A stretch of 64,000 nt of DNA from Taiwanofungus camphoratus (lineage: Eukaryota; Basidiomycota; Agaricomycetes; Polyporales; Taiwanofungaceae). Below are positions 44,568 to 61,685 of the stretch, one piece after another. The position numbers were made by a program, and so were the translations under genes. A model generated the notes under the pieces. That model ran no database searches. It was not told where the DNA came from and was given only the letters and a program-made list of their open reading frames with translations. The number at the start of each line of letters is the position of its first letter. Positions within the stretch are counted from its first letter, which is position 1. The stretch is taken from assembly GCA_003999685.1 (NCBI GenBank), contig CP021220.1, forward strand, positions 1,984,001-2,048,000, given 5' to 3'.

Positions 44568-45110
44568 TGATACAATTTCTTTTATCGCATGTCTTATCGG
44601 TCGGACCTCGGACCGGTCCCATGACCTTTCGCTTCTAGGACAGGCCTCGGGTAGGCCCAGCTTCGTCGCGCAGTGCCTTGATTCATCGCTGCTTACGGTA
44701 CGGGCCCCGGTTACTCATGGACTATGACTCATATCGGGCCCCGCTTACACATTCCGTCTTACGCTTACTGATTGCTAATACGGCCCGATGACTCATATCG
44801 CCTTACTTACGCTTACTCATGCTGATTCTTAGACCACGTGCCATGGTCCGTGCGCAGAGTAGAATACGTATATAAGGCCCTGTACTTTGTGGGTCGGACC
44901 TTAAGTTTGATCTGGTTACCAAGTAGCTAGTCACCACTAGCAATCTTATACTCGTATCTTGCGACCTCTCGCTTCGTACCTGAGTACTCGCTCGACTCTA
45001 TCGACTTCGCCCAGGAGGACATACGCAGTGTCCATAAAGCCTCACTACTATCTCTAGTAGCCAGGTCCTCACGTTCGAGGCTTTCCGGTCGTTGATACCA
45101 GTTTGTATCA
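44568..45110 (+). repeat. 5' LTR of element A1
   Basis: 543 bp, bounded by TGATAC...GTATCA. Contains TATATAA at 44869-44875 and two exact ATGACTCAT sites (44724-44732, 44788-44796). Compared with the A2 LTRs it lacks an 11-bp duplication of ACGGGCCCCGG. Confidence 0.9.
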
Positions 45111-45304
45111 AAAGATCGAACTTCCGCTAAGTCGCCCCTAGTCTTATCTAGTAGGGCTAACCGTTAGACATCACGTCTACCATCGAGACAGTCGACCCCA
45201 CCGCTTGGGGATTGTCGACTCAAGTAAATGACGCGCCGCTTCTGTACGATCGTCTTTGTTGGACCTTCGTTGATCAGAACCTCGATCCGATCTACCCGAA
45301 CTCC

Positions 45305-45309
45305 CCACT
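45305..45309 (+). repeat. Target duplication CCACT, left copy (element B into A1 gag)
   Basis: CCACT stands directly before the B 5' LTR and again directly after the B 3' LTR at 60456-60460. Removing B with one copy restores the gag sequence order seen in A2 (aactc-ccact-tgcgtgg). Confidence 0.9.
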
Positions 45310-45654
45310 TGATACAATTTCTATTTCTTGTCATTACCATGGTCATTACTTACATATAGACTATTACTGTACGGGCCCCAGATCGGCCCCGCTTACTTAT
45401 AGGACTCTGACTCATATCCGGGCCGCTTACCACATTCCTCATCACTCATACATATTGCTAATACGCCCGGATTGTACCACTTTCCATTTATCTATAGTCG
45501 TACCACATTACGGACCTCCTGCCCTAGAGTAGTTCTTGGTCCGTGCTCACGATACGTACTTGTATATATAGCATGTACTTAGTTCAGTTCAGACCTTAAG
45601 TCTGATCTAGTTACCATTAGTCTTTCGACTATCATATTCGTGTCTTGTATCCTC
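45310..45654 (+). repeat. 5' LTR of element B, left part
   Basis: First 345 bp of the LTR, starting TGATACAATTTC, with TATATATA about 35 bp before the primer-complementary segment 45597-45608. It ends in the TCCTC target copy, where A2 begins. Confidence 0.9.
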
Positions 45655-46208
45655 TGATACAAACTGGTATCAACGACCGGAAAGCCTCGAACGTGAGGAC
45701 CTGGCTACGAGAGATAGTAGTGAGGCTTTATGGACACTGCGTATGTCCTCCTGGGCGAAGTCGATAGAGTCGAGCGAGTACTCAGATACGAAGCGAGAGG
45801 TCGCAAGATACGAGTATAAGATTGCTAGTGGTGACTAGCTACTTGGTAACCAGATCGAACTTAAGGTCCGACCTACAAAGTACAGGGCCTTATATACGTA
45901 TTCTACTCTGCGCACGGACCATGGCACGTGGTCTAGGAATCAGCATGAGTAAGCGTAAGTAAGGCGATATGAGTCATCGGGCCGTATTAGCAATCAGTAA
46001 GCGTAAGACGGAATGTGTAAGCGGGGCCCGATATGAGTCATAGTCCATGAGTAACCGGGGCCCGTCCGGGGCCCGTACCATAAGCAGCGATGAGTCAAGA
46101 TGCTGCGCAAAGAAACTGGGCCTACCTGAGGCCCCTCCTAGAAGCGAAAGGTCACAGGACCGATCCGAGGTCCGACCGATAAGACATGCGATGAAAGAAA
46201 TTGTATCA
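45655..46208 (-). repeat. 3' LTR of element A2
   Basis: 554 bp, TGATAC...GTATCA, preceded (in element sense) by a G-rich polypurine run aagtaggggggtaa. Confidence 0.93.
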
Positions 46209-46486
46209 TTACCCCCCTACTTATGATTGAACGCCTGGTCAATCAACTAAAACTCCAATGGGGACGCGTCGAGTTTCTCCGAGTCGAACTTTTGGCGACC
46301 GTCGACGAACTTGACGAACTTCCGAGGATGAACTTGAAAAAACTTGCCTGGAAGTGACGAGCGGGTGTTTCACCGCGACCTATAAGGGATGACCCTTCCA
46401 ACCATAGGGGATGACCCCTCCAACCGTGAGCGTCCTTTCAGCTCGAACTTTTACAGTTTTACGACATGTCGGTCGTACGGTGTAGT

Positions 46487-46741
46487 TTAACGACGTGCAC
46501 GGTCGTACCCTCGCAGTTTAACGACATGCAGGAACCACTCTGGATGATACGGCGGTTCCGGGTCGTAGGCGAATGCGTAATTGACGGCGATGCATTCGCG
46601 CGTAAGGTGCCCAGGGGATGGGCGACTACAGCGGAGACATTTGTAGTCGGGGCACGTCCTGTGCGAGTGACGGGTGCTACCGCAGAGGTAGCACGGACCG
46701 TAGCGAGTGAACGAGGATGAAGGACCGTTTGACTGAGACAT
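46487..46741 (-). CDS. A2 third ORF: paired zinc-knuckle peptide
   Basis: An 84-codon frame 37 bp after the pol stop. It holds two knuckles in tandem: CYLCGSTRHSHRTC (C-x2-C-x4-H-x4-C), then after PDY, CLRCSRPSPGHLTREC (C-x2-C-x6-H-x4-C). The spacing and the linker match the third ORF of element B, so I take it as homologous. Function unknown; nucleic-acid binding is the obvious guess. Confidence 0.7.
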   Translation of the reverse strand: MSQSNGPSSSFTRYGPCYLCGSTRHSHRTCPDYKCLRCSRPSPGHLTRECIAVNYAFAYDPEPPYHPEWFLHVVKLRGYDRARR

Positions 46742-46777
46742 GCGAGCGATGAGTGGGGTGAAAATGCGACTTTCTTT

Positions 46778-49700
46778 TCATCGTAAGTTCTTGCGCTGCT
46801 TATATGCGTTCAGCAGCTCGTCCGCAGTACCGGCTAAGTTCTCTTCCGGTTCCCATGAGTCATCGGCGGATGAGTAACCTTTCCACCTGACTCGATATTC
46901 TCGGCGATTCCTTCGGCGATTCTCACGATGTCCAACCAGAGCTTCGACTTCGTAGTTATCTTCACCGCTGATAAGCTCCGGTGGTGGTTCCGTGTAGTTG
47001 GGACCATGGGTGTCCGTCTCGGTATATGGTAAAAGAAGTGCAGCGTGGAAAACGGGGTGCACCCGCCAGGTCGCCGGGAGTTTCAGCTTGTAAGACACCG
47101 GTCCTAGAACGTCCGTGATTTCAAAGGGTCCCTCGCGCTTGGGAGCCAATTTCCTCGTCGGGTATGGCAGCTTTAGATTCCGTGAGTCTAGCCATACCTT
47201 TTGTCCTTTGCGGAAACCCGTTCCGTTGGGTTTCACGCGTCTTGCTAACACCGCCTGTGCTAGCTCCATTGCTGAGTGTGCGTCTTCCCGAATCTTCTGC
47301 AAGTTCCGCAGTCGATAAGCAGCGCCCGGTGTGTCCGATCCGGGGTGTACGACGGGAATTCCTCGAGGTTCATAGCCCATCATGACCTTGAAGGGTGACG
47401 CCTTAATTGTTGAATGCTCACGCGAGTTGTGAGCGAATTGTGCTGAACCCAGCAGCGACGACCAATTGTCCGGGTTGTTGCTCGTGAAACATCGCAGGTA
47501 GATCTCCAGTTCCTGGTTGACTCGTTCCGTCTCTCCGTCCGTTTGAGGGTGGAACGCTGTGCTCATAGCTGACTTGACTCCGGTCATACGGCAGAGCTCC
47601 TGGAATACCTTTGATGCGAACTGTGGTCCCCGATCGCTAATGATCTTGTCCGGAAGACCAAACCACTTGTACACCTCACGATATAATGCCTCGGCTGTTC
47701 CTGATGCGTCAATCGTTTTGTTGCATGGAATGAAAACTACCCCCTTCGTAAGGTCGTGGTCCACAACGACCAGAATTGAATCGTAGCCCTCCGAAGTCGG
47801 TAAGTCCGTAATGAAATCGCAGCAGAATGTACTGAACGGGGTGGCGTGCTGCGCGGATTTGATCGGGAGTAGGGCTGGTCGGGTGGGGTGCGTATTAACC
47901 TTCATTTGCTGGCAGGTGCCGCAACCTTTGACGTATCGCGTGACGAAGTCAGCCATTCCAGGCCACCAGTAATCTCGTCGAATAGACGAGAGGGTCTTTT
48001 GAATTCCAGGGTGGCCGGCGGAGAGGAGGTCGTGATAATTCGAGACCGTGTGTCGTCGTAGATCCTCATCTAGGGGAATATACACCCGATTATCGTAGAG
48101 GAGGTCTCCGTCTCGAATTGTCCAGTGGTCATTTGAGCCGTTTCGTGCATTGCGCATCCCTTCCGTATACACCGAGTCATTTACACATGCTTCTGCGATG
48201 GAAGCCCTTAGACTTGTGTCGATTGCTGCTGCCCATACCTTGTCTGGTAGAACGGTTACATCTTGGTTGTCTGATGAACCGTCGTCGTGGTCAGGGCGTC
48301 GGGAGAGCGCGTCGCTTTGCACCATTTGCGTGCCCGGGACATGAATTAACCTGTAATCGAATTCGGACAAGCGAAGAGCCCATCGTGCTTGTCTTCGATT
48401 CAGATTCCGTGCCGTTTTCCAGTACGTCAGGTTCTTGTGGTCGCTATAGATCGTGACTGGGTACGGGCTTCCGATGAGAAGGTGACTCCATTCGTTGAGG
48501 CCTCTCATGACGCCCATGAGTTCCCGGTCATAGACGTCGTAGTTTCGTTCCGCTGGTGTCATACTCTGGGAAATATAACCACACGGATGCCAATCGCCGT
48601 TGTCGTCCTTTTGCCTGAGGACGGCGCCCGTGGCGAACTTTGATGCATCTGTTTCCAATGCGAACGGCTTCTCCGGGTCAGGCATCTGTAGAACCGGTTG
48701 TTCCAGGAAAGCTTTCTTCAGTGCCTCGAAAGCTTCCTGTTGTTCATCGTCCCAATGCCATTTGACGTCCTTTCGCGTAAGCGAGACCAAAGGCTGGGCC
48801 AGATGCGAGAAGCTGTGTATGAACCGACGGTAGAAGTTCCCGAATCCAACGAACGATCTAACCTCCCTGAGGTTCTTAGGTATCGGCCAGTCCCTGATGC
48901 CGGCTACCTTGATTGGGTCCATGGCGAGTTGTCCGGGTCTGATGATCATGCCTAGGAATTCAACTTCTTGCACGTCGAATTTGCACTTTTCCGGTTTGAG
49001 ATACAGGTCGGTATCTCGAAGTCGCTCGATAACTCGCCGTGTTCGCTTTTTGTGCTCCTCGGGGTCCGTTGAATAGATAAGGATGTCGTCCATATAGATT
49101 GCCAACCATCCTTCCTTGAGCATGTCCGCGAAGACCGTGTTCATCATTCGTTGGAACGTCGCCGGTGAGTTGCACATCCCGAAGAACATTACCAGGGGTT
49201 CGTAGAACGAGGGAGGTCCTTCCCCTGCTGCTGGAATGCCGAAAGCTGCCTTCCATTCGTCACCTTCCTTGATGCGAAGGTTGTTGTATCCTTGACGAAG
49301 GTCCATCTTTGTGAAGATCGTGGCGTTATTGAGGCGTTCCAGAAGTTCCGTTACGAGGGGAAGAGGGTATCTGTCCTTGATCGTTCCCTCGTTGAGTTCT
49401 CTATAGTCCTGGCACGGTCGATAGCCGCCGTCCTTCTTATCCACGAAGAAGAACGGACTGGCGAGTGGCGATTTGGACGGTCGGATGTATCCTTTCTCTA
49501 TATTCTCTTCGAGGAACGTGTCTAGTTCCGTTCGTTGATCTCGGTTGAGAGAATACGTCGACTGCTTGAAGTCCTTAAAATCCGGCTTGAGATTTATCTC
49601 GTGGTCGAACTCCGAATGTCGAGGAAGTCTCGCGGCTCTGGTTTTGTCGAACACTGGGAGGAGATCGTGGAGGTACTCAGGGACGAGTTCCGTGACCGGT

Positions 49701-50662
49701 TTCTCCTCTTTCTTGGCGTGTTCCTTGATAGCGAGTTCCGTAGACGTGGTGAGTCGGCCGATGTCGTGCTTGACCTGCCAGATAAGACCGTTTTCGAGAC
49801 GACGATAGGGTCCGTCGAGAGGGTATTTTTCCTCCGTAAGAGGTGCGTCTCGATACGCTGGATACGAGTCTCGTCCATATGTCGTGATCCGATCGTCTCC
49901 CTCGATGAACGCTATGACTAGTTCATCGTCGTCGATCGTTTCCATCGCCTGATCCAAAGTGATACCGTTGACCGATTCTTCTACCAGGGGTGCGACGGGG
50001 ATGTCGCGGCGTGCCGTCTGCCTAGACATGTCTGTCGTTGGCAAGACAGGAGACATGGTGTCGATCACCTCGAAGTCTCCTTCGTCTTCTACCTCCTCAA
50101 TGGTGGGCTGCCATTGTTCTTTGAGGCGTTTCTCTCGTTCGGCAAGGAACGCCGCTACTTGTGGACAAGGGGGGGCTGACCAGTCTACCTCATAATCTAG
50201 TACGGGATCCAGGGCTTCTTCCTGTTCTCGTTCCGCTAGTTTCTTCAGCTCCAGTCGCGCTACTCGTTGCGCAATGATCCCCTTCTTCCACTCTCGAGAT
50301 TCCTGTAGAGTCATGCGGTGCTTCAGTTCCACACGACCCCCCTTCCAGTCGATACTGGGGTTCTCGAGTTTGAGCCATGTATGCCCGAAGATGACGTCTT
50401 CGTTCCCTATACTGGCCACGTATGCTTTGACAAACCGGGGCTCATTCCCGATTTTGTACGATAGCAAGGCTCGTCTGTTAATGAGCGCTTGTTTGTTGGC
50501 AGTGCCGTCCACGTTGAACACCGGTATCGGGCGTGGTAGCGCCTCAGTCCGTAACTTGTGTTCCTTAACAAATCGTGGATGCACGAATATTCCCGATGCG
50601 CCACTGTCGATGAAGGCGCGGGCTTCGACGGCTTTTCGTCCCACAGTAATCGGAATGTGCAA
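46778..50662 (-). CDS. A2 pol polyprotein with chromodomain
   Basis: A 1294-codon open frame. In order: aspartic protease (FIDSGASGIF), reverse transcriptase (FTKMDLRQGYNNLRI, active site YMDDILIYS), RNase H (LETDASKFATGAVL, YDRELMGVMRGL), integrase with HHCC finger (HPGIQKT ... CGTCQQMK) and DDE core (TAFHPQTDGETERVNQELE), then a C-terminal chromodomain (YRVRWKGYSSADDSWEPEENL). The chromodomain places it among chromoviruses, which tend to insert near modified histones. Looks whole. Confidence 0.93.
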   Translation of the reverse strand: MHIPITVGRKAVEARAFIDSGASGIFVHPRFVKEHKLRTEALPRPIPVFNVDGTANKQALINRRALLSYKIGNEPRFVKAYVASIGNEDVIFGHTWLKLENPSIDWKGGRVELKHRMTLQESREWKKGIIAQRVARLELKKLAEREQEEALDPVLDYEVDWSAPPCPQVAAFLAEREKRLKEQWQPTIEEVEDEGDFEVIDTMSPVLPTTDMSRQTARRDIPVAPLVEESVNGITLDQAMETIDDDELVIAFIEGDDRITTYGRDSYPAYRDAPLTEEKYPLDGPYRRLENGLIWQVKHDIGRLTTSTELAIKEHAKKEEKPVTELVPEYLHDLLPVFDKTRAARLPRHSEFDHEINLKPDFKDFKQSTYSLNRDQRTELDTFLEENIEKGYIRPSKSPLASPFFFVDKKDGGYRPCQDYRELNEGTIKDRYPLPLVTELLERLNNATIFTKMDLRQGYNNLRIKEGDEWKAAFGIPAAGEGPPSFYEPLVMFFGMCNSPATFQRMMNTVFADMLKEGWLAIYMDDILIYSTDPEEHKKRTRRVIERLRDTDLYLKPEKCKFDVQEVEFLGMIIRPGQLAMDPIKVAGIRDWPIPKNLREVRSFVGFGNFYRRFIHSFSHLAQPLVSLTRKDVKWHWDDEQQEAFEALKKAFLEQPVLQMPDPEKPFALETDASKFATGAVLRQKDDNGDWHPCGYISQSMTPAERNYDVYDRELMGVMRGLNEWSHLLIGSPYPVTIYSDHKNLTYWKTARNLNRRQARWALRLSEFDYRLIHVPGTQMVQSDALSRRPDHDDGSSDNQDVTVLPDKVWAAAIDTSLRASIAEACVNDSVYTEGMRNARNGSNDHWTIRDGDLLYDNRVYIPLDEDLRRHTVSNYHDLLSAGHPGIQKTLSSIRRDYWWPGMADFVTRYVKGCGTCQQMKVNTHPTRPALLPIKSAQHATPFSTFCCDFITDLPTSEGYDSILVVVDHDLTKGVVFIPCNKTIDASGTAEALYREVYKWFGLPDKIISDRGPQFASKVFQELCRMTGVKSAMSTAFHPQTDGETERVNQELEIYLRCFTSNNPDNWSSLLGSAQFAHNSREHSTIKASPFKVMMGYEPRGIPVVHPGSDTPGAAYRLRNLQKIREDAHSAMELAQAVLARRVKPNGTGFRKGQKVWLDSRNLKLPYPTRKLAPKREGPFEITDVLGPVSYKLKLPATWRVHPVFHAALLLPYTETDTHGPNYTEPPPELISGEDNYEVEALVGHRENRRRNRREYRVRWKGYSSADDSWEPEENLAGTADELLNAYKQRKNLR

Positions 50663-50745
50663 AGCTCTGTCATTCCTGACTACAAGTACAACACGGGACA
50701 GTGAAATGGATACGGGCAGTGGTTGCGTCGGCTCACCCTGCCCCT

Positions 50746-52068
50746 TTAAAAATCCTCCGTTCCTAACTCCTCGAACATCGCCCTTTTCTCATCCGATGAG
50801 AGCGTCTTGATGTACGAGCGGAAATCCATGGGGGATCGCACCTCGGGTTCCTTCGAGGTATTCCTTTGGCCAGCTTTGGCCGTCTTCTTCGGACACTTGC
50901 GCACCGCGTGCCCTCCCTTGTGGCAGTAGAAACATAGACGATTATCCATGTGGTACTTCCTTTCTTTCTCGCTGAGGTTGCATCCGTCCTCCCACTTCTT
51001 GGTAAACGGTGTGGGACGCGAGGTAGTGAGTGCGTCCACCTCCATGGGCTCGCCATAGTCAACGTCGTTGGTGGCGGAGAGGGTCTGGTCGATCCCTCTG
51101 TAGACGGCGTCGAGATGGAGAACATCGGCGTACCATTTCTCCATGGAGTTGGGTCGCTCTGTATTGGTGCGGCCTGCAAGTGTCGTGTAGATCTGGCGGT
51201 CCAGACCTTTGATGAAGATCGCCCTCAACGTGGGGTAATCGTTCTCGGTGCGTTGGCCTTGGAGGCTCGTGAAAGCGTCCTTTAACTTGGCCTTCTCTGC
51301 CAGGAGTCGGAACCTCTCCACGTACATCTTCGTACTGACCCTGGTCTTCTTGTTTAGTTGTTTGGCCGGCAACTCCATTAGCACTTGATGAGCCCTCTGG
51401 ACTCCTTCGTGCTCGGGGAACGCGAGTCGCAAGCTCGCCTTAAATACGTCCCAGCTAGCGTAGGGAGCATGCCCTCCCGCGGCCCGTTCGTAGAACGTAT
51501 CGCGCCAGATACGTGCATCCTGCCCTCCTTTCATGAGAGCGACCGTGTAAGCGATCTTTGCGTCATCGCTTAACCTTTGGTTGTTGGTGGCAGTGAGGTA
51601 ATGCTCCACCCGCTGGAGGAAACGCTCCAGATCTTCTCCTTGCCCGGTGAACGGATCCGGTGCAGGAATGTCGAGCTTAAGGGGTCGACTCCCCTGTTGC
51701 TGTTGCGCCGAGAGGTGCGCTATGAGCGCCTCGAGCTCCGCCCTGGTCATTGTTGCGATAGTAGCCATCGTGGTGGGAGTGGTAGGTGTTACAGGGGTGG
51801 AAGGAAGTGATGGGGACGTGGGAGTGGTCGGGGTGGCTATCAACGGTGTCGATGGTATCGACGCGGGAAAGAAACCAGCTGGGTCTCTTCCGTCTGGCGG
51901 AGGGTTACGTCTGAAATAGGAGGCTAATTTCTCCTGTGCTCGGCGATCCGAAATTGTCCCTGCCCACGCAAGTGGAGAGTTCGGGTAGATCGGGTCGAGG
52001 TTCTGATCAACGAAAGTCCAACGAAGACGATCGTACAGAAGCGGCGCGTCGTTTACTTGAGTCGGCAA
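50746..52068 (-). CDS. A2 gag
   Basis: About 440 codons. Capsid-like core (PFTGQGEDLERFLQRVEHYL, GGQDARIWRDTFYERAAGG, AFPEHEGVQRAHQ) and one C-terminal CCHC knuckle (CFYCHKGGHAVRKC). Closely similar to the gag parts of A1 and B. The region around the first codons has no obvious ATG, so the exact start is unclear. Confidence 0.88.
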   Translation of the reverse strand: MPTQVNDAPLLYDRLRWTFVDQNLDPIYPNSPLAWAGTISDRRAQEKLASYFRRNPPPDGRDPAGFFPASIPSTPLIATPTTPTSPSLPSTPVTPTTPTTMATIATMTRAELEALIAHLSAQQQQGSRPLKLDIPAPDPFTGQGEDLERFLQRVEHYLTATNNQRLSDDAKIAYTVALMKGGQDARIWRDTFYERAAGGHAPYASWDVFKASLRLAFPEHEGVQRAHQVLMELPAKQLNKKTRVSTKMYVERFRLLAEKAKLKDAFTSLQGQRTENDYPTLRAIFIKGLDRQIYTTLAGRTNTERPNSMEKWYADVLHLDAVYRGIDQTLSATNDVDYGEPMEVDALTTSRPTPFTKKWEDGCNLSEKERKYHMDNRLCFYCHKGGHAVRKCPKKTAKAGQRNTSKEPEVRSPMDFRSYIKTLSSDEKRAMFEELGTEDF

Positions 52069-52169
52069 TCCCCAAGCGGCGGGGTCGATTGTCTCGATGG
52101 TAGACGTGATGCCTACTGGTTAGCCCTACTAGATAAGACTAGGGGCGACTTAACGTAAGTTCGATCTTT

Positions 52170-52723
52170 TGATACAAACTGGTATCAACGACCGGAAAGC
52201 CTCGAACGTGAGGACCTGGCTACGAGAGATAGTAGTGAGGCTTTATGGACACTGCGTATGTCCTCCTGGGCGAAGTCGATAGAGTCGAGCGAGTACTCAG
52301 GTACGAAGCGAGAGGTCGCAAGATACGAGTATAAGATTGCTAGTGGTGACTAGCTACTTGGTAACCAGATCGAACTTAAGGTCCGACCTACAAAGTACAG
52401 GGCCTTATATACGTATTCTACTCTGCGCACGGACCATGGCACGTGGTCTAGGAATCAGCATGAGTAAGCGTAAGTAAGGCGATATGAGTCATCGGGCCGT
52501 ATTAGCAATCAGTAAGCGTAAGACGGAATGTGTAAGCGGGGCCCGATATGAGTCATAGTCCATGAGTAACCGGGGCCCGTCCGGGGCCCGTACCATAAGC
52601 AGCGATGAGTCAAGATGCTGCGCAAAGAAACTGGGCCTACCCGAGGCCCCTCCTAGAAGCGAAAGGTCACAGGACCGATCCGAGGTCCGACCGATAAGAC
52701 ATGCGATGAAAGAAATTGTATCA
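52170..52723 (-). repeat. 5' LTR of element A2
   Basis: 554 bp. Carries ATGAGTCAT (complement of ATGACTCAT) at 52484-52492 and 52548-52556. Segment 52367-52378 is complementary to the primer-site region 52156-52167 just inside the LTR. Confidence 0.93.
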
Positions 52724-52874
52724 TCCTCTCGCTCATATCTGAGTGATACTCGCTCGAGTCTACGGACTTCACGACACTCGGTCTATATCGACCATAAGAC
52801 CTCGCCACCTACTATTGTGGTCAGGCCCTCACGTGTGAGGCAACATCTAGGATCCAAGATACCAATTTGTATCA
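52724..52874 (+). repeat. 5' LTR of element B, right part
   Basis: Continues the B LTR after A2, beginning with the second TCCTC target copy and ending GTATCA at 52874. Next to it, 52877-52888 is the candidate self-priming site. Confidence 0.9.
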
Positions 52875-53021
52875 AAAGATCAGACTTACGCTAAGCCGCC
52901 CCTAGTATCATCTAGCGGGCATACATCCACTACTACGTCTTACCTCAGGACCGTCGATCCTGAATATTGGGGGTTACCTTCACAGGGAGAGGAACCACTT
53001 CTCTACAACATCGAACAACGA

Positions 53022-54353
53022 GTGTTCGTAGACGCGAACCGGAATCCAATCTATCCGAGTTCACCGCTTACCTGGGTTAGAACAACATCCAGACGATCGA
53101 TCCAACAAGCGCAGGCCAATCTCGCTGTCTACTTCCAGCGAAACCCTGTCAACGAAGGGAAGGACATCTCCATCCTATTCACAGGAGGATCACAGGAATC
53201 CACACCCGTTGAACCAACCACCGAGGACCCGTTCACCCCCTCTATCTCCCGAAACCCCACTCCCACCCCATCCTCTTCCACATCCACTTCTATAATATCC
53301 GCACCCACACCTCGACGAGTTACAATGGCCACAATTGGGAACATGACCCAGCAGCAGCTGGAGACACTCATCGCTCGCCTCAGCACCCAGCAGCAGGGAG
53401 CTCGAGCCCTCAAGCTCGACATTCCTGCACCAGACCCATTCACGGGACAAGGAGAAGACCTGGACCGATTCGTCCAGCGGGTGGAACATTATTTCACCGC
53501 CATAAACAACACCAATCTCAGCGATGACGCAAAGATCGCATTCGCGGTCGCTCTCATGAAGGGAGGGCAAGACGCACGCATATGGCGTGACACGTTCTAT
53601 GAACGAGCAGCAGAGGGCCAGGCGCCCTACAGGACATGGGACATATTCAAGGCATCCTTGAAATTGGCATTCCCAGAACATGAAGGAGTACAGCGAGCGC
53701 ACCAGGTGCTCATGGAACTACCAGCCAAACAGCTGAACAAGAAAACGAGGGCCACTACTAAAATGTATGTGGAAAGATTCCGACTTTTGGCCGAAAAGGC
53801 GAAATTGAAGGACGCGACCATCGATGCAAACGGGAACCGCACCGAAAACGACTACCCTACCCTTAGGGCGATATTCATCAAGGGACTAGATCGCCAGATC
53901 TACGCCACACTAGCTGGAAGGGCCACATCCGAAAGGCCGGATACCATGGAAAAATGGTACAGGGACGTCCTATCCTTGGACGCAATCTATAGGGGGATCG
54001 ATCAAATCTCCAACATCACCACTACGGTCGACTATGGCGAACCCATGGACGTGGACGCCGTCGTCACCCGTCCCACCCGCACTTCTCTATCTTCCTCTAA
54101 CAGAAAGCAATGGACGGATGGCTGCTCCTTGAACGAAAGTGAAAGGAAATACCACCGTGACAACAACCTATGCTTCTATTGCCATAATAGGGGACATTCG
54201 GCACGAGACTGTCGCAAGAAGGCGGCAGCAAGGATGAAGGACACGCCCAAGACGCAAGACATGTGTCCCACGAACTATCGCTCTTACATCAAAAGCCTAT
54301 CTGCCGATGAGAAAAGAGAGGTCATGGAAGAATTGGCTGCGGAGGATTTTTAA
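53022..54353 (+). CDS. Element B gag
   Basis: 443 codons, similar throughout to A-family gag: TLIARLSTQQQGARALKLD, then PDPFTGQGEDLDRFVQRVEH, AFPEHEGVQRAHQVLMELP, and a CCHC knuckle CFYCHNRGHSARDC. Pol follows 14 bp after the stop in another frame. Homology to A-type gag continues upstream of 53022, so the true start may lie earlier. Confidence 0.88.
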   Translation: MFVDANRNPIYPSSPLTWVRTTSRRSIQQAQANLAVYFQRNPVNEGKDISILFTGGSQESTPVEPTTEDPFTPSISRNPTPTPSSSTSTSIISAPTPRRVTMATIGNMTQQQLETLIARLSTQQQGARALKLDIPAPDPFTGQGEDLDRFVQRVEHYFTAINNTNLSDDAKIAFAVALMKGGQDARIWRDTFYERAAEGQAPYRTWDIFKASLKLAFPEHEGVQRAHQVLMELPAKQLNKKTRATTKMYVERFRLLAEKAKLKDATIDANGNRTENDYPTLRAIFIKGLDRQIYATLAGRATSERPDTMEKWYRDVLSLDAIYRGIDQISNITTTVDYGEPMDVDAVVTRPTRTSLSSSNRKQWTDGCSLNESERKYHRDNNLCFYCHNRGHSARDCRKKAAARMKDTPKTQDMCPTNYRSYIKSLSADEKREVMEELAAEDF

Positions 54354-54367
54354 AGGGGCAGGGTGAG

Positions 54368-57300
54368 TTGACGCAACCACTGCCCATCTCAGTTTCACTA
54401 TCCCGCGTTGTATTAGTAGTTCGGAATGAAAGAGCCTTACACATTCCGATTACTGTGGGACGAAAAGACGTCGAAGCACGCGCCTTCATTGATAGCGGCG
54501 CCTCTGGGATATTCATACATCCCAGATTTGTCAAGGAACACAACATCCACACTGAGGCTCTACCTCGCCCAATGCCCGTGTTCAATGTGGACGGAACGGC
54601 TAACAAGCAAGCCACCATCACAAAAAGGGCCCTTCTTTCATACAAAATAGAAGGAGAACCCCGATTCGTCAAGGCCTATGTAGCCAGCATAGGAAACGAA
54701 GATATTATCTTCGGGCATACCTGGCTAAAATTGGAAAACCCGGACATCGATTGGAAGACGGGACGGGTGGAGCTTAAACACCGCATGACTCTGGAAGAAT
54801 CTAGGGAATGGAAGAAAAACCTATTGGAAACCAGAGCTAAACGACTGGAGATCAAGAGATTAACAGCAGAATCTCTCTCAGAAGAAATCATCAAGGCTCG
54901 CCAACCCACAGTCGAAGAAGTAGAGGACGAAGGAGATGGGGAAGTCGTAGACACCATGTCCCCAGTCCTGCCAACGGAAGAAACCCCACGTCAAACGACA
55001 CCCCGAGACTTGCTAGTCTCCACCCCGGAAGAAAACTCGGTAAATGGAATCACACTCGAACAGGCCATGGAAACGATCGACGACGATGAGCTGGTCATAG
55101 CATTCGTTGAAGGAGATGATCGAATCACAACGTATGGGCGGGACTCACATCCAGCATATCGAGACGCCCCGCTCTCGGAAAAGGCATACCCCCTCGATGG
55201 AACGTATCGTCGCCTCGAAAATGGTCTAATCTGGCAGGTCAAACATGACATCGGTCGTCTTACCACGTCTACGGAACTCGCTATCAAGGAACACGCAAAG
55301 AAAGAGGAGAAACCCGTCAGGGAACTTGTACCTGAATACCTTCACGATCTCCTACCCGTATTCGACAAGCAAGCAGCGGCCCGACTCCCTAAGCATACAG
55401 AACATGACCACGAGATCAACTTAAAGGAAGATTTCAAGGAATTCAAGCAGTCCACTTATTCGCTCAACCGAGAGGAACGAGAGGAGCTGGATAAGTTCCT
55501 GGAAGAAAACCTTCAAAAAGGGTACATTCGTCCGTCGAAATCACCATTGGCTAGCCCATTCTTCTTCGTAGAAAAGAAGGATGGGGGATATCGACCTTGT
55601 CAGGATTATCGAGAACTCAACGAAGGAACTATCAAGGATCGTTATCCACTCCCTCTCATATCGGAACTCCTGGAACGGCTGAACAAGGCGACCATCTTCA
55701 CCAAGATGGATCTCAGGCAAGGGTACAACAATATACGGATCCGAGAAGGAGACGAATGGAAGGCGGCTTTCGGTGTTCCAGCAGCTGGGGAAGGACCTCC
55801 CTCGTTCTACGAACCCCTGGTAATGTTCTTCGGGATGTGCAACTCACCAGCAACCTTCCAACGTATGATGAACACAGTCTTCGCTGACATGCTCAAGGAG
55901 GGATGGTTAGCAATCTACATGGACGACATCCTTATCTACTCGACAGACCCTGAGGAGCATAAAAAACGGACACGGCGAGTTATCGAAAGGCTCCGGGATA
56001 CCGACCTGTATCTCAAACCGGAAAAATGCAAATTCGACGTGCAAGAAGTCAAATTCTTGGGGATGATCATTAGACCCGGACAACTCGCCATGGACCCGGT
56101 CAAGGTGGCCGGCATCAAAGACTGGCCGATACCTAAGAACCTCAGAGAGGTTCGGTCGTTCATCGGGTTTGGAAACTTTTACTGTCGGTTTATACATAGA
56201 TTCTCGCATCTGGCCCAACCCCTGATCTCGCTTACGCGAAAAGACGTCAAATGGCATTGGGACGACGAACAACAGGAGGCATTCGAAACACTTAAGAAAG
56301 CTTTCCTGGAACAACCGGTCCTATTGATGCCTGATCTGGAGAAACCGTTCGCGATGGAAACCGATGCATCGAAATTTGCCACCGGCGCTGTCCTCAGGCA
56401 AAAAGACGATAATGGAGATTGGCACCCATGCGGTTATATCTCCCAGAGCATGACACCGGCGGAACGAAATTACGATGTTTACGATCGGGAACTTATGGCG
56501 GTCATGAGAGGGCTCAATGAATGGAGCCACCTCCTCATCGGTAGCCCGTATCCAGTCATGATTTACAGCGATCACAAGAATCTGACATACTGGAAGACGG
56601 CACGGAATCTAAATCGAAGACAGGCACGATGGGCTTTACGCCTATCCGAATTCGATTACAGGTTGGTTCATGTACCCGGCACACAAATGGTGCAAAGTGA
56701 CGCGCTCTCCCGACGCCCAGACCACGACGATGGTTCATCCGACAACCAGGATGTGACCGTCCTACCAGACAAAGTGTGGGCTGCAGCAATCGACACAAGT
56801 CTCAGGGCTTCCATCAGAGAAGCGAGCGTAAATGACTCGATGTACACAGAAGGATTACACCATGCACAAAACGGCTCAGACAACCACTGGACAATTCGGA
56901 ACGGAGACCTCCTCTACGATAATCGGGTATATATCCCCCTGAACGAGGATCTACGGCGACAAACGGTCTCGAATTACCACGATCTTCCCTCCGCCGGTCA
57001 CCCTGGAATTCAAAAGACCGTCTCGTCTATTCGATGAGACTACTGGTGGCCTGGAATGGCTGACTTTGTCACACGATACGTCAAAGGATGTGGCACTTGC
57101 CAGCAAATGAAAGTTAACACACACCCAACCCGACCGGCCCTACTCCCGATCAAATCCGCGCAGCACGCCACTCCGTTCAGTACATTCTGCTGCGATTTCA
57201 TTACAGATTTGCCGATTTCAGAGGGGTACGATTCGATTTTGGTCGTCGTGGACCACGACCTTACGAAGGGGGTAATTTTCATTCCATGCAACAAGACAAT

Positions 57301-58234
57301 TGACGCATCAGGAACAGCCGAGACATTATATCGCGAAGTATACAAGTGGTTTGGTCTTCCGGACAAAATCATTAGCGATCGAGGACCACAATTCGCGTCA
57401 AAGGTATTCCAGGAACTCTGCCGCATGACCGGAGTCAAGTCGGCTATGAGCACGGCGTTCCACCCCCAAACAGATGGGGAGACGGAACGAGTCAACCAGG
57501 AACTGGAGATTTACCTGCGATGCTTTACGAGCAACAACCCAGACAAATGGTCTTCCCTACTCAGCGCAGCACAATTCGCTCACAACTCAAGGGAACATAC
57601 GACAATCAAGGCGTCGCCGTTTAAAGTCATGATGGGTTTCGAACCGCGAGGAATTCCTGTAGTACACAAGGGGTCGGACACACCCGGCGCAGCTTACCGG
57701 CTAAAGAACCTCCAGAAAATAAGGGAACAAGCACATGCGGCGATGGAGCTAGCTCAGGCTGTTCTGGCAAAACGGATCAAGCCACGAGGGAAAGGTTTTC
57801 GTAAAGGACAACAAGTATGGCTCGACTCTCGGAACCTAAAGCTGCCATACCCCTCCAGGAAGTTAGCACCCAAAAGAGAGGGACCCTTCGAAATCGTCGA
57901 AGTCCTAGGCCCGGTTTCTTACAAGCTGAAACTCCCGGAGACATGGCGAGTACACCCCGTTTTCCACGCTGCCCTTCTATCGCCATACACAGAAACGGAG
58001 ATCCATGGCCAGAACTACACGAGGCCACCTCCGGAACTTATCGAAGGCGAAGACAACTACGAAGTCGAAGCCATCATCGGACATCGGGAGAACTTACGAA
58101 AGAATTGCCGCGAGTACAGGATCAGGTGGAAAGGATATTCTTCGGCAGATGACTCATGGGAACCGGAAGCAAACTTAACCGGTACTGCGGAGGAACTTCT
58201 GGAAGCATATAAGGAGAGGAAGAACTTGAGCTAA
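54368..58234 (+). pseudogene. Element B pol region (broken, about one break)
   Basis: Protease (DSGASGIFIHP), RT (YMDDILIYS), RNase H (METDASKFATGAVLRQ), integrase and C-terminal chromodomain (YRIRWKGYSSADDSWEPEANL) are all recognisable in the family order. Very similar to A2 pol. Treated as a fossil with about one break. Confidence 0.88.
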
Positions 58235-58277
58235 GACCAGTTCACCTCCTCCAAACGAACTACCATCCACACGCAAC

Positions 58278-59690
58278 ATGCCTCGCCAGTCTAACACCAC
58301 CGCCCAAGCTGCCGCTCGTGGCCGAGCCCGTACCTTTCTTGCCACTCGACGTGCTACCCGCACACCCCAGACGGTCACCTCTTCCACGGTAGCACCATCT
58401 TCATCATCGGCATCCTCGACGTCCAATGGACAAAGCCCACTCTTTGGATTTCAAACCACCGCACTGTTTCGCAACCCCGTCCCAGGAGAAGGGGCTTTAC
58501 CCCGACAAGCCAACATCATCTACCATCCTCGTTGCCTCTACGATGTGGACCCAATCCTTCTTGACATCCTCACTCGACACTCCAAGGACATCGCACGCCT
58601 GCTTAGGTCCTTACCAAATACGCGAAACAACCAGGACGAGCAGGAGGCATTCGGAGAATACATCGACGCTAGGCTGCAATACTTAGGAGCAGTAGACGAC
58701 GCAACCGAGCAGCTGGCCATATGGAAGGACAGGGTCCAGCAACTAGACTTCAAGGTGATCCGCACCTTACGACGAATGGATGATATGTCTATGGCTCGCC
58801 ATCTTCAGGACATGATCTCCCCGCATCAGCGAACCAGCCACGCCAGGTTCGTACGGCGATCTCAACCCGACACCATCACACGCGGACTTACCCCTCCGCC
58901 TGAACCTGAAAATCCCCTACAAACCTTCATCGATACCCCGGCCGGGCAACAATCCATCGGAGCCGCACCAAGTAGGATCGACTCACTCCCTAACTACATG
59001 CGCCCAGGACCCAACTGGAGACCTCGAGGACGCTGCCACGCCTGCGGTAGCATGATGCATTGGGTACGCGATTGTCCCGACTACACCTGTGCCAGATGTC
59101 ATCGCACTGCTCCGGGGCATCTATCTCGAGAATGCACAGTGGCTCGCCACGCTTCGGCTCCGCCCATCTTACCCGCCCCCGGAGAAGGTCGTCGTCGCGA
59201 GATAGTCGATTCGATCCATCGCCCCACGCAAGCACCTATCCCCGTTATGTCCACCACCAACCCTCCACGCGTTCTCATGTCCAGGAGAGAACAACCCCTT
59301 CCCCCTATCCTGTCACGCTCCAGAAACAATGAACCAATCGCTCCCCCCCCAACCAATGCAATACCCGGCCCATCTCGAACACACACGCCCTACCCTCACC
59401 CACGCGCCCCCGGGCCACCACTCAACCATTTGTCCGGACCGGGTATACCGCCCAACCCACACCCTGCAGAACCCGGGGCAAGTATTGGTCCCTTCACTCG
59501 TGGCCCCAACGGCCGATTCACACCTCCCCCAGTCATCCCACCTCCCCCGTCCAGTTATCACGTCCCCCCTATCGTTTCTCCACCGCCTGTTTACCGCCGC
59601 GGGACTTACGACCCGCCCACAAACTCCTACATGAACGACGACGAGTGGGACGACTACGAGTTCGAGGATTACGGTGATGGTGAGCAGTAG
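58278..59690 (+). CDS. Element B third ORF, 470 codons, paired zinc knuckles
   Basis: An open frame starting 44 bp after pol, inside the element. The N-terminal third is basic and Ser/Thr-rich, followed by a helical stretch (FGEYIDARLQYLGAVDDATE, VIRTLRRMDDMSMARHL). At about residue 253 comes CHACGSMMHWVRDC then PDY then CARCHRTAPGHLSREC: the same two-knuckle module as in A2. The C-terminal 170 residues are Pro-rich and end very acidic (NDDEWDDYEFEDYGDGEQ). Ty3/gypsy elements normally end coding with pol, so this is an accessory gene of unknown function, distinct from gag, which has its own single knuckle. Confidence 0.8.
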   Translation: MPRQSNTTAQAAARGRARTFLATRRATRTPQTVTSSTVAPSSSSASSTSNGQSPLFGFQTTALFRNPVPGEGALPRQANIIYHPRCLYDVDPILLDILTRHSKDIARLLRSLPNTRNNQDEQEAFGEYIDARLQYLGAVDDATEQLAIWKDRVQQLDFKVIRTLRRMDDMSMARHLQDMISPHQRTSHARFVRRSQPDTITRGLTPPPEPENPLQTFIDTPAGQQSIGAAPSRIDSLPNYMRPGPNWRPRGRCHACGSMMHWVRDCPDYTCARCHRTAPGHLSRECTVARHASAPPILPAPGEGRRREIVDSIHRPTQAPIPVMSTTNPPRVLMSRREQPLPPILSRSRNNEPIAPPPTNAIPGPSRTHTPYPHPRAPGPPLNHLSGPGIPPNPHPAEPGASIGPFTRGPNGRFTPPPVIPPPPSSYHVPPIVSPPPVYRRGTYDPPTNSYMNDDEWDDYEFEDYGDGEQ

Positions 59691-59964
59691 GGGTACTGTT
59701 TGCTTGAGGCGGTAGGTTGCAAGCGGTGCTGGGTCCTTACCCGGCCGCCCACATGCCTACATTGCACGAGGCTTACACGATGTCGTGGGTCCTTACCCGG
59801 TCGCTGTCTGTCTCACACGAAACGAGATGAAACACTCTCACACAAGGTTCGAGGTGAAACACCCTCATGGTACGCGGTGAAACATCCGCATGGCTGATGA
59901 ACATTTTTATTTAACGGAAAATCAAGTAGGGTCGTTCAGAGATCGACCTTAAGTAAGGGGGTAA

Positions 59965-60455
59965 TGATACAATTTCTATTTCTTGTCATTACCATGGTCA
60001 TTACTTACATATAGACTATTACTGTACGGGCCCCAGATCGGCCCCGCTTACTTATAGGACTCTGACTCATATCCGGGCCGCTTACCACATTCCTCATCAC
60101 TCATACATATTGCTAATACGCCCGGATTGTACCACTTTCCATTTATCTATAGTCATACCACATTACGGACCTCCTGCCCTAGAGTAGTTCTTGGTCCGTG
60201 CTCACGATACGTACTTGTATATATAGCATGTACTTAGTTCAGTTCAGACCTTAAGTCTGATCTAGTTACCATTAGTCTTTCGACTATCATATTCGTGTCT
60301 TGTATCCTCTCGCTCATATCTGAGTGATACTCGCTCGAGTCTACGGACTTCACGACACTCGGTCTATATCGACCATAAGACCTCGCCACCTACTATTGTG
60401 GTCAGGCCCTCACGTGTGAGGCAACATCTAGGATCCAAGATACCAATTTGTATCA
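59965..60455 (+). repeat. 3' LTR of element B
   Basis: 491 bp, TGATAC...GTATCA, preceded by the polypurine run aagtaagggggtaa. TATATATA at 60218-60225; TGACTCA at 60063-60069. Followed by the second CCACT target copy at 60456-60460. Confidence 0.93.
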
Positions 60456-61685
60456 CCACTTGCGTGGGCAGGGACAATTTCGAATCGACGAGCACAGGAG
60501 AAATTAGCCTCCTATTTCAGACATAACCCTCCGCCAGAAGGAAGAGACCCAGCTGGTTTCTTTCCCGCGTCGATACCCTCGACACCGTTGATAGCCACCC
60601 CGACTACTCCCACGTTCCCATCCCTCCCTTCCACACCCGTAACACCTACAACCCCTACCACGATGGCTACTATCGCAACAATGACCAGGGCGGAGCTCGA
60701 GGCGCTCATAGCGCACCTTTCGGCGCAACAGCAACAGGGGAGTCGACCCCTTAAGCTCGACATTCCTGCACCGGAGCCGTTCACCGGGCAAGGAGAAGAT
60801 CTGGAGCGTTTCCTCCAGCGGGTGGAGCACTACCTCACTGCCACCAACAATCAGGGGTTAAGCGATGATGCAAAAATCGCTTACACAGTCGCTCTCATGA
60901 AAGGAGGGCAGGACGCACGTATCTGGCGCGATACGTTTTACGAACGGGCCGCGGGAGGGCATGCTCCCTACGCTAGCTGGGACGTATTCAAGGCGAGCTT
61001 GCGACTCGCGTTCCCCGAGCACGAAGGAGTCCAGAGGGCTCACCAGGTGCTAATGGAGTTGCCGGCCAAGCAACTAAACAAGAAGACCAGGGTCAGTACA
61101 AAGATGTACGTGGAGAGGTTCCGACTCCTGGCAGAGAAGGCCAAGTTAAAGGACGCCGTCGTGGGCCTCCAAGGCCAACGCACCGAGAACGATTACCCCA
61201 CGTTGAGGGCGATCTTCATCAAAGGTCTGGACCGCCAGATCTACACAACACTCGCAGGTCGCACCAACACGGAACGACCCAACTCCATGGAAAAATGGTA
61301 CACCGACGTTCTTCACCTCGACGTCGTCTACAGAGGGATCGACCAAACCCTCTCCGCTACCTCCGACGTCGACTACGGCGAACCCATGGAAGTGGACGCA
61401 CTCGTTACCCCGCGTCCCACACCGTTCACCAAGAAGTGGGAAGACAGATGCAACCTTAGCGAGAAGGAAAGGAAGTACCACATGGACAATCGTCTATGTT
61501 TCTACTGCCACAAGGGAGGACACGCGGTGCGCAGGTGTCCGAAGAAGACGGCCAAAACAGGCCAAAGAAATACCTCGAAGGAACCCGAGGCACGATCCCC
61601 CATGGATTTCCGCTCGTACATCAAGACGCTCTCATCGGATGAGAAAAGGGCGATGTTCGAGGAGTTAGGAATGGAGGATTTTTAA
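60456..61685 (+). mobile_element. Element A1 gag, remainder after element B
   Basis: Resumes A1 gag at the CCACT duplication: RREKLAS-type start, LEALIAHLSAQQQQGSRPL, GGQDARIWRDTFYERAAGG and the knuckle CFYCHKGGHAVRRC. Nearly identical to A2 gag over the shared part. Confidence 0.88.

Follow-up and report, generated by a model that had tools for sequence, protein, structure and literature searches.

Probable self-priming of reverse transcription in chromodomain Ty3/gypsy retrotransposons of Taiwanofungus camphoratus

Three nested retrotransposons in a 64-kb window (the whole stretch of Taiwanofungus camphoratus DNA analysed here, 64,000 nucleotides of contig CP021220.1) very probably start reverse transcription from their own RNA, through self-priming of the Tf1/sushi type. 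This reading, drawn from sequence comparison and modelled folding, is based on the complementarity between a segment of each LTR and the primer-binding site (PBS) that follows the 5' LTR, on the position of the two, on their recurrence in unrelated sequences, on changes found on both sides, on the predicted fold, and on the finding that none of the tRNA 3' ends tested matches. A first-pass annotation of the window had proposed the Tf1/sushi layout, and the recurrence, a constant 2-nt offset, the predicted folding and the chromodomain Ty3/gypsy identity of the elements, self-priming being established in that group, lend support to that proposal.

The three elements are all Ty3/gypsy chromodomain retrotransposons, with A2 lying within B and B within A1. 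A1 is an older copy, whose 5' LTR (44568-45110, +) is 94.8% identical to the A2 LTR. Element B (45310-60455, +) sits in the A1 leader, flanked by a CCACT target duplication (45305-45309 / 60456-60460); its 5' LTR is split by the A2 insertion and ends at 52874, its 3' LTR occupies 59965-60455 (+), and the pair shows 1 difference in about 490 positions. Element A2 (45655-52723, -) is located in the B 5' LTR between the copies of a TCCTC target duplication (45650-45654 / 52724-52728); its 5' LTR spans 52170-52723 (-), and its LTR pair is 99.6% identical, with 2 differences in 555 aligned positions. The pol open frame of A2 (46778-50788, -), for which Ty3 is the closest solved relative, contains protease-like, reverse transcriptase (RT), RNase H, integrase, SH3_Tf2-1 and chromodomain regions, and the A2 gag frame (50746-52068, -) had no Pfam match. 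The B gag frame (53022-54353, +) gave a weak DUF4939 match, below the DUF4939 cut-off, and the B pol region (54311-58234, +) consists of two open pieces, one with RT/RNase H and the other with the integrase core, SH3_Tf2-1 and the chromodomain. An in-frame stop at 57035-57037 (+) breaks B pol, despite the nearly identical B LTRs. In A2 (50749-50788, -) as in B (54311-54350, +), pol lies in the -1 frame relative to gag and shares about 40 nt with it. B has an extra frame of 486 codons in the interval from integrase to 3' LTR (58230-59687, +), with one zinc knuckle (PF00098); in A2, the corresponding interval has no frame of at least 150 aa.

Pfam matches in A2, B and two further families, D and E, followed the Ty3/gypsy domain order of RT, RNase H and integrase after protease, and all four carried a chromodomain (PF00385) together with SH3_Tf2-1 at the integrase C terminus. 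Protease matches, just under or over the Pfam cut-offs, were found in A2 and B only. The purine-rich tract before the 3' LTR ends in GGGGGTAA or GGGGGTAG in A, B, D and E (46209-46217, -; 59957-59964, +; L112; L110).

In A1, A2 and B alike, exactly 2 nt separate the 5' LTR from the PBS. In B, the PBS AGATCAGACTTA (52877-52888, +) is the exact 12-nt complement of a putative primer segment, TAAGTCTGATCT, present in both the 5' LTR (45597-45608, +) and the 3' LTR (60252-60263, +). In A2, the PBS AGATCGAACTTA (52156-52167, -), which reads TAAGTTCGATCT on the plus strand, faces the primer segment TAAGTTCGATCT of the 5' LTR (52367-52378, -), a candidate RNA 5' end whose distance from the upstream start of TATATAA is 33 nt; the same segment recurs in the 3' LTR (45852-45863, -). 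The first-pass annotation had reported these B and A2 positions with 12-of-12 complements, all of which were correct on re-reading the sequence. It had also paired A1 with one G-U, and we found the same: the primer segment TAAGTTTGATCT in the A1 5' LTR (44902-44913, +) forms 11 pairs, including one G-U, with the PBS AGATCGAACTTC (45113-45124, +), the end base being mismatched, as the range of 45113-45123 given earlier implies. No other exact copy of the A2 and B 12-mers occurs anywhere in the 64-kb window.

Across families A, B, C, D and E, the exact complement at offset 2 measured 12, 12, 12, 11 and 11 nt, respectively. Chance was assessed with 5,000 approximately dinucleotide-preserving shuffles per LTR; against the observed 12 nt in A and B and 11 nt in D and E, a complement of at least 11 nt at offset 2 arose in no shuffle for A, B or D and in one (a 12) for E. 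From offset 14 onward, the longest complement was 7 nt in the A-E leaders and 9 nt in a Copia leader, and a Copia element from this genome, our negative control for self-complementarity, reached an own-LTR complement of only 5 nt at offsets 0-8. The complementarity is confirmed as real and well beyond chance. We consider it extremely unlikely that one ancient coincidence without function was inherited by all copies: although A, B and C have a related 12-mer and their copies are not independent, this account is at odds with the shuffles and is largely refuted by D and E, which carry unrelated sequences at the same offset.

Genome-wide searches, covering 33.2 Mb on 15 contigs, provided these further families. 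Family E, with a pol frame of 1403 aa, has the PBS AGAATACGACT and the LTR complement AGTCGTATTCT in 11/11 sites. Family D has the PBS AGGACAAGATT and the LTR complement AATCTTGTCCT in L111 and in four of five further stretches (5/6 in total), one a variant; in the variant L129, both sides are altered (AGAACAAGATT / AATCTTGTTCT). The spacer between LTR and PBS is 2 nt in all these D and E sites, and the D and E PBS sequences are unrelated to those of A/B and to each other, the offset being identical. RT identity was 95% between A and B, 83% between D and E, and 67-69% between A/B and D/E.

PBS patterns gave 135, 59 and 54 matches genome-wide, compared with 1, 1 and 0 for reversed controls; the 135 belong to the A/B pattern, which had two free positions and allowed up to 2 mismatches. 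From 100 of these 135 matches listed, we sampled 40 A/B/C sites, namely one variant and 39 exact matches picked by eye so as not to be among the best 40 for A or the best 40 for B; family C represents a third U3 type, with the primer as in A. At least 11 pairs with an LTR segment were formed at 39/40 sites, so that the complementarity claimed for the window is kept in other copies; 12 pairs were formed at 32 sites, and all were Watson-Crick at 28. Because only the PBS side was constrained by the pattern, the LTR side constitutes an independent test. The sole one of the 40 sites that matched the PBS pattern and had no primer was L097. The primer-to-PBS distance was 165-221 nt in the 39 paired A/B/C sites and 165-352 nt across families. 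Ten further B copies had the exact primer in 10/10 cases, and overall the primer:PBS pairing was fully Watson-Crick in 56/69 copies. At least 125 of 150 listed RT domains had such a site on the same strand, at 1.2-4.2 kb upstream (A/B 79, E 39, D 7; the other 25 were without one), in a tally where the A/B sites came mostly from DNA matches spanning the PBS with their letters largely unread, and where distances were taken from differing reference points.

The spacing of the putative promoter would put the expected RNA start near the LTR segment. The segment had been placed about 33 bp after the TATA box, and in family members, too, a TATA-like box starts 33-35 nt upstream of the primer: in 51/51 primer-bearing A/B/C copies (52 fetched), in 23/23 E copies and in 7/8 D copies, using a motif list that was chosen after examples had been seen and that includes the degenerate D form TACTTAA. 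Family D has a degenerate TATA only. Folding of the leader from primer through PBS, in six sequences from five families (one of them a joined sequence), predicted the primer:PBS helix in 6/6, with mean pair probabilities of 0.922-0.975. In the Tf1 'pretzel' RNA, which has three duplexes, this helix corresponds to the central one. The U5-side duplex of that structure had z values of -4.05 in A, -2.18 in B, -1.44 in C, -1.70 in E and -0.56 in D, and was clear in A and B only.

The pairing could be real and nevertheless serve another step, such as a packaging fold, dimerisation or translation control, with an unknown RNA acting as primer; long-range leader helices of this kind could act at other stages, and the support here comes from sequence and predicted folding. 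We regard this as very improbable, since in families A-E the helix sits exactly at the PBS, 2 nt past the LTR; its length equals that of Tf1 or exceeds it by one, and the TATA spacing places its second arm close to where the RNA should start.

We also compared the PBS sequences with tRNAs, using 53 segments of a partial tRNA set. The best 3'-end match was 7/14 for A and 8/14 for B, D and E, in keeping with the earlier statement that a TGG-type tRNA site is lacking. The longest run shared with any tRNA was 9 nt for A (in the T-arm of L068), 7 for B, 9 for D (a mitochondrial tRNA) and 7 for E, compared with 12, 12, 11 and 11 nt for the elements' own LTRs; for an internal match of the half-tRNA type, the longest run within this set was 9 nt in A and 7 nt in B. 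Priming by a host tRNA or a fragment of one (3' end, half-tRNA or T-arm), with the LTR match secondary, would find its best sequence in that 9-nt T-arm match, which lies away from the tRNA 3' end and is not common to B. Such priming could also have a parallel in the Copia elements of the genome, where GGTTATGAGCCC directly follows the LTR in 3/5 fetched 5' stretches (L113, L131 and L134) and resembles the half-tRNA-Met type. However, the tRNA matches fall short of the 11-12 nt found with the LTR, and the A/B difference in the PBS is mirrored by none of the tested tRNAs, which makes tRNA priming highly unlikely.

One of the 53 segments, L155, is the sole genomic match of the 13-base pattern complementary to the Copia PBS; it was considered as an initiator tRNA gene and rejected, as neither ARAGORN nor Rfam called a tRNA there. 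The tRNA-rich contig C15 of the assembly (G000), taken as mitochondrial, has a period of ~115 kb, as expected of a circular molecule whose assembly ran past a full turn.

A and B differ at two positions, on the PBS and on the primer alike. When the PBS was shuffled among the 51 A/B/C copies, 39 perfect pairings were observed against 18.7 expected, a number reached in 0/10,000 shuffles; within A/C only, 25/36 were perfect against 20.7 expected, and 144/10,000 shuffles were as high. These fractions are not probabilities, because the copies are related. In the E subfamilies, two more positions were changed on both sides. The E variant PBS AGAATACAACT was accompanied by the predicted T at primer position 4 in 5/7 copies, and among 23 E copies a PBS A went with a primer T in 6/8 and a PBS G with a primer C in 13/15 (Fisher p 0.006, relatedness ignored). 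The PBS form AGG was paired with primer CC in 2/2 copies (L185 and L186), and L178 combined CC with the PBS form AGA. At the level of subfamilies, the changes are paired.

Predictions for individual copies were less successful. Primers predicted beforehand for 16 variant PBS sites were exact in only 4 (L176, L177, L181 and L186), corresponding to 4/12 in E, 0/3 in D and 0/1 in A; many single-copy variants therefore look like decay after insertion. The three D variants, the A variant and L191, a further variant outside the 16, retained the usual primer or had otherwise lost pairs, L191 having an end mismatch. Many primer and PBS variants among L175-L191 are C/T or G/A transitions, for which methylation-linked decay is possible.

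In an RNAalifold consensus of 49 A/B/C copies, the primer:PBS helix is the outermost one; two of its pairs vary on both sides, and the covariation term is slightly unfavourable (+1.32 of a total of -10.83). The compensatory A/B change noted in the first-pass annotation does exist on both sides, but is weaker evidence of selection than was implied, because self-priming may simply copy the primer into the new PBS and because copies that share ancestry do not count as independent.

Our model of self-priming is as follows. Transcription would start about 33-35 nt after the TATA start, so that the RNA 5' end would be the LTR segment, of 12 nt in A and B or 11 nt in D and E, which would fold onto the PBS just past the LTR. 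The element's RNase H would then cut after primer nucleotide 12 or 11, freeing a 3' end whose extension across the 2-nt spacer into U5 would yield minus-strand strong-stop DNA; two extra bases of this DNA would later be trimmed by integrase. The primer would also serve, at least in part, as template for the new PBS, and this would keep both sides matched.

When the plus strand is transferred in elements primed by a tRNA, the PBS can be rewritten with the primer as template. By analogy, we tentatively suggest, as an idea somewhat less probable than its opposite, that the PBS of the present elements is rewritten from the primer in every cycle and that primer and PBS drift together without awaiting paired mutations. 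If so, lineages could swap the primer entirely, as between the unrelated A/B, D and E sequences, while the geometry stays fixed (2-nt spacer, 11-12 nt, 33-35 nt after TATA), and two-sided changes would mark the use of the primer instead of proving that the helix is under selection.

The mechanism is already known, although uncommon. According to PMC10085805, self-priming is shared by the Tf1/sushi group, and it has been implicated from fungi to vertebrates (PMC4600332). We count the present elements as new members because self-priming has already been described for Tf1/sushi and proposed for Tcn1. Among the titles and abstract beginnings listed on self-priming in fungi and basidiomycetes, from a literature with few subscription journals, we recognised no comparable survey. 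What these elements add is their copy number, unrelated primers with a fixed geometry, and paired changes. The layout appears to be kept across two diverged chromovirus groups with three unrelated primers in one genome, which offers a natural data set on the joint evolution of a primer and its binding site. A complement at LTR+2 with a fixed TATA spacing also provides a simple genomic test for self-priming in elements listed as lacking a PBS.

Several known elements bear comparison. Skipper chromoviruses of dictyostelids are Ty3/gypsy elements that likewise carry a chromodomain, and many of them have no PBS of the tRNA type; unlike ours, they have a polypyrimidine stretch in its place, for which no LTR complement is reported to have been found (PMC5006619). 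Fungal GalEa elements also lack an ordinary tRNA PBS, but belong to the Copia group and have a hairpin there, again reportedly with no complement found (PMC5445492). Tcn1-clade elements of mosses and club-mosses are mostly predicted to be self-primed, and other plant chromoviruses are not (PMC6317226); their hosts are plants. For SM-Tcn1 of Selaginella, another group found neither tRNA priming nor self-priming (PMC2864245). The basidiomycete Ty3/gypsy element Tcn1 of Cryptococcus neoformans, which we liken by description only, has been proposed to self-prime in the manner of Tf1, and Tcn2-5 may use a novel form of priming (PMC7175516, citing earlier work for Tcn1).

Among the closest counterparts is Tf1 of Schizosaccharomyces pombe, with Tf2, Tj1 and Tosmo1-3. 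It is likewise a chromodomain Ty3/gypsy element; its RNA 5' end is complementary to a PBS just after the LTR, as that of our elements would be. Fission-yeast elements of the Tf1 group are built with a single frame or with an in-frame stop (PMC10085805), unlike the overlapping gag and pol of A2 and B, and the PBS-downstream duplex of the Tf1 'pretzel' was unsupported by folding here (z -0.86 to +2.25). The pairing itself is 11 nt in Tf1 (PMC7175516), as in families D and E, and 12 nt in A and B.
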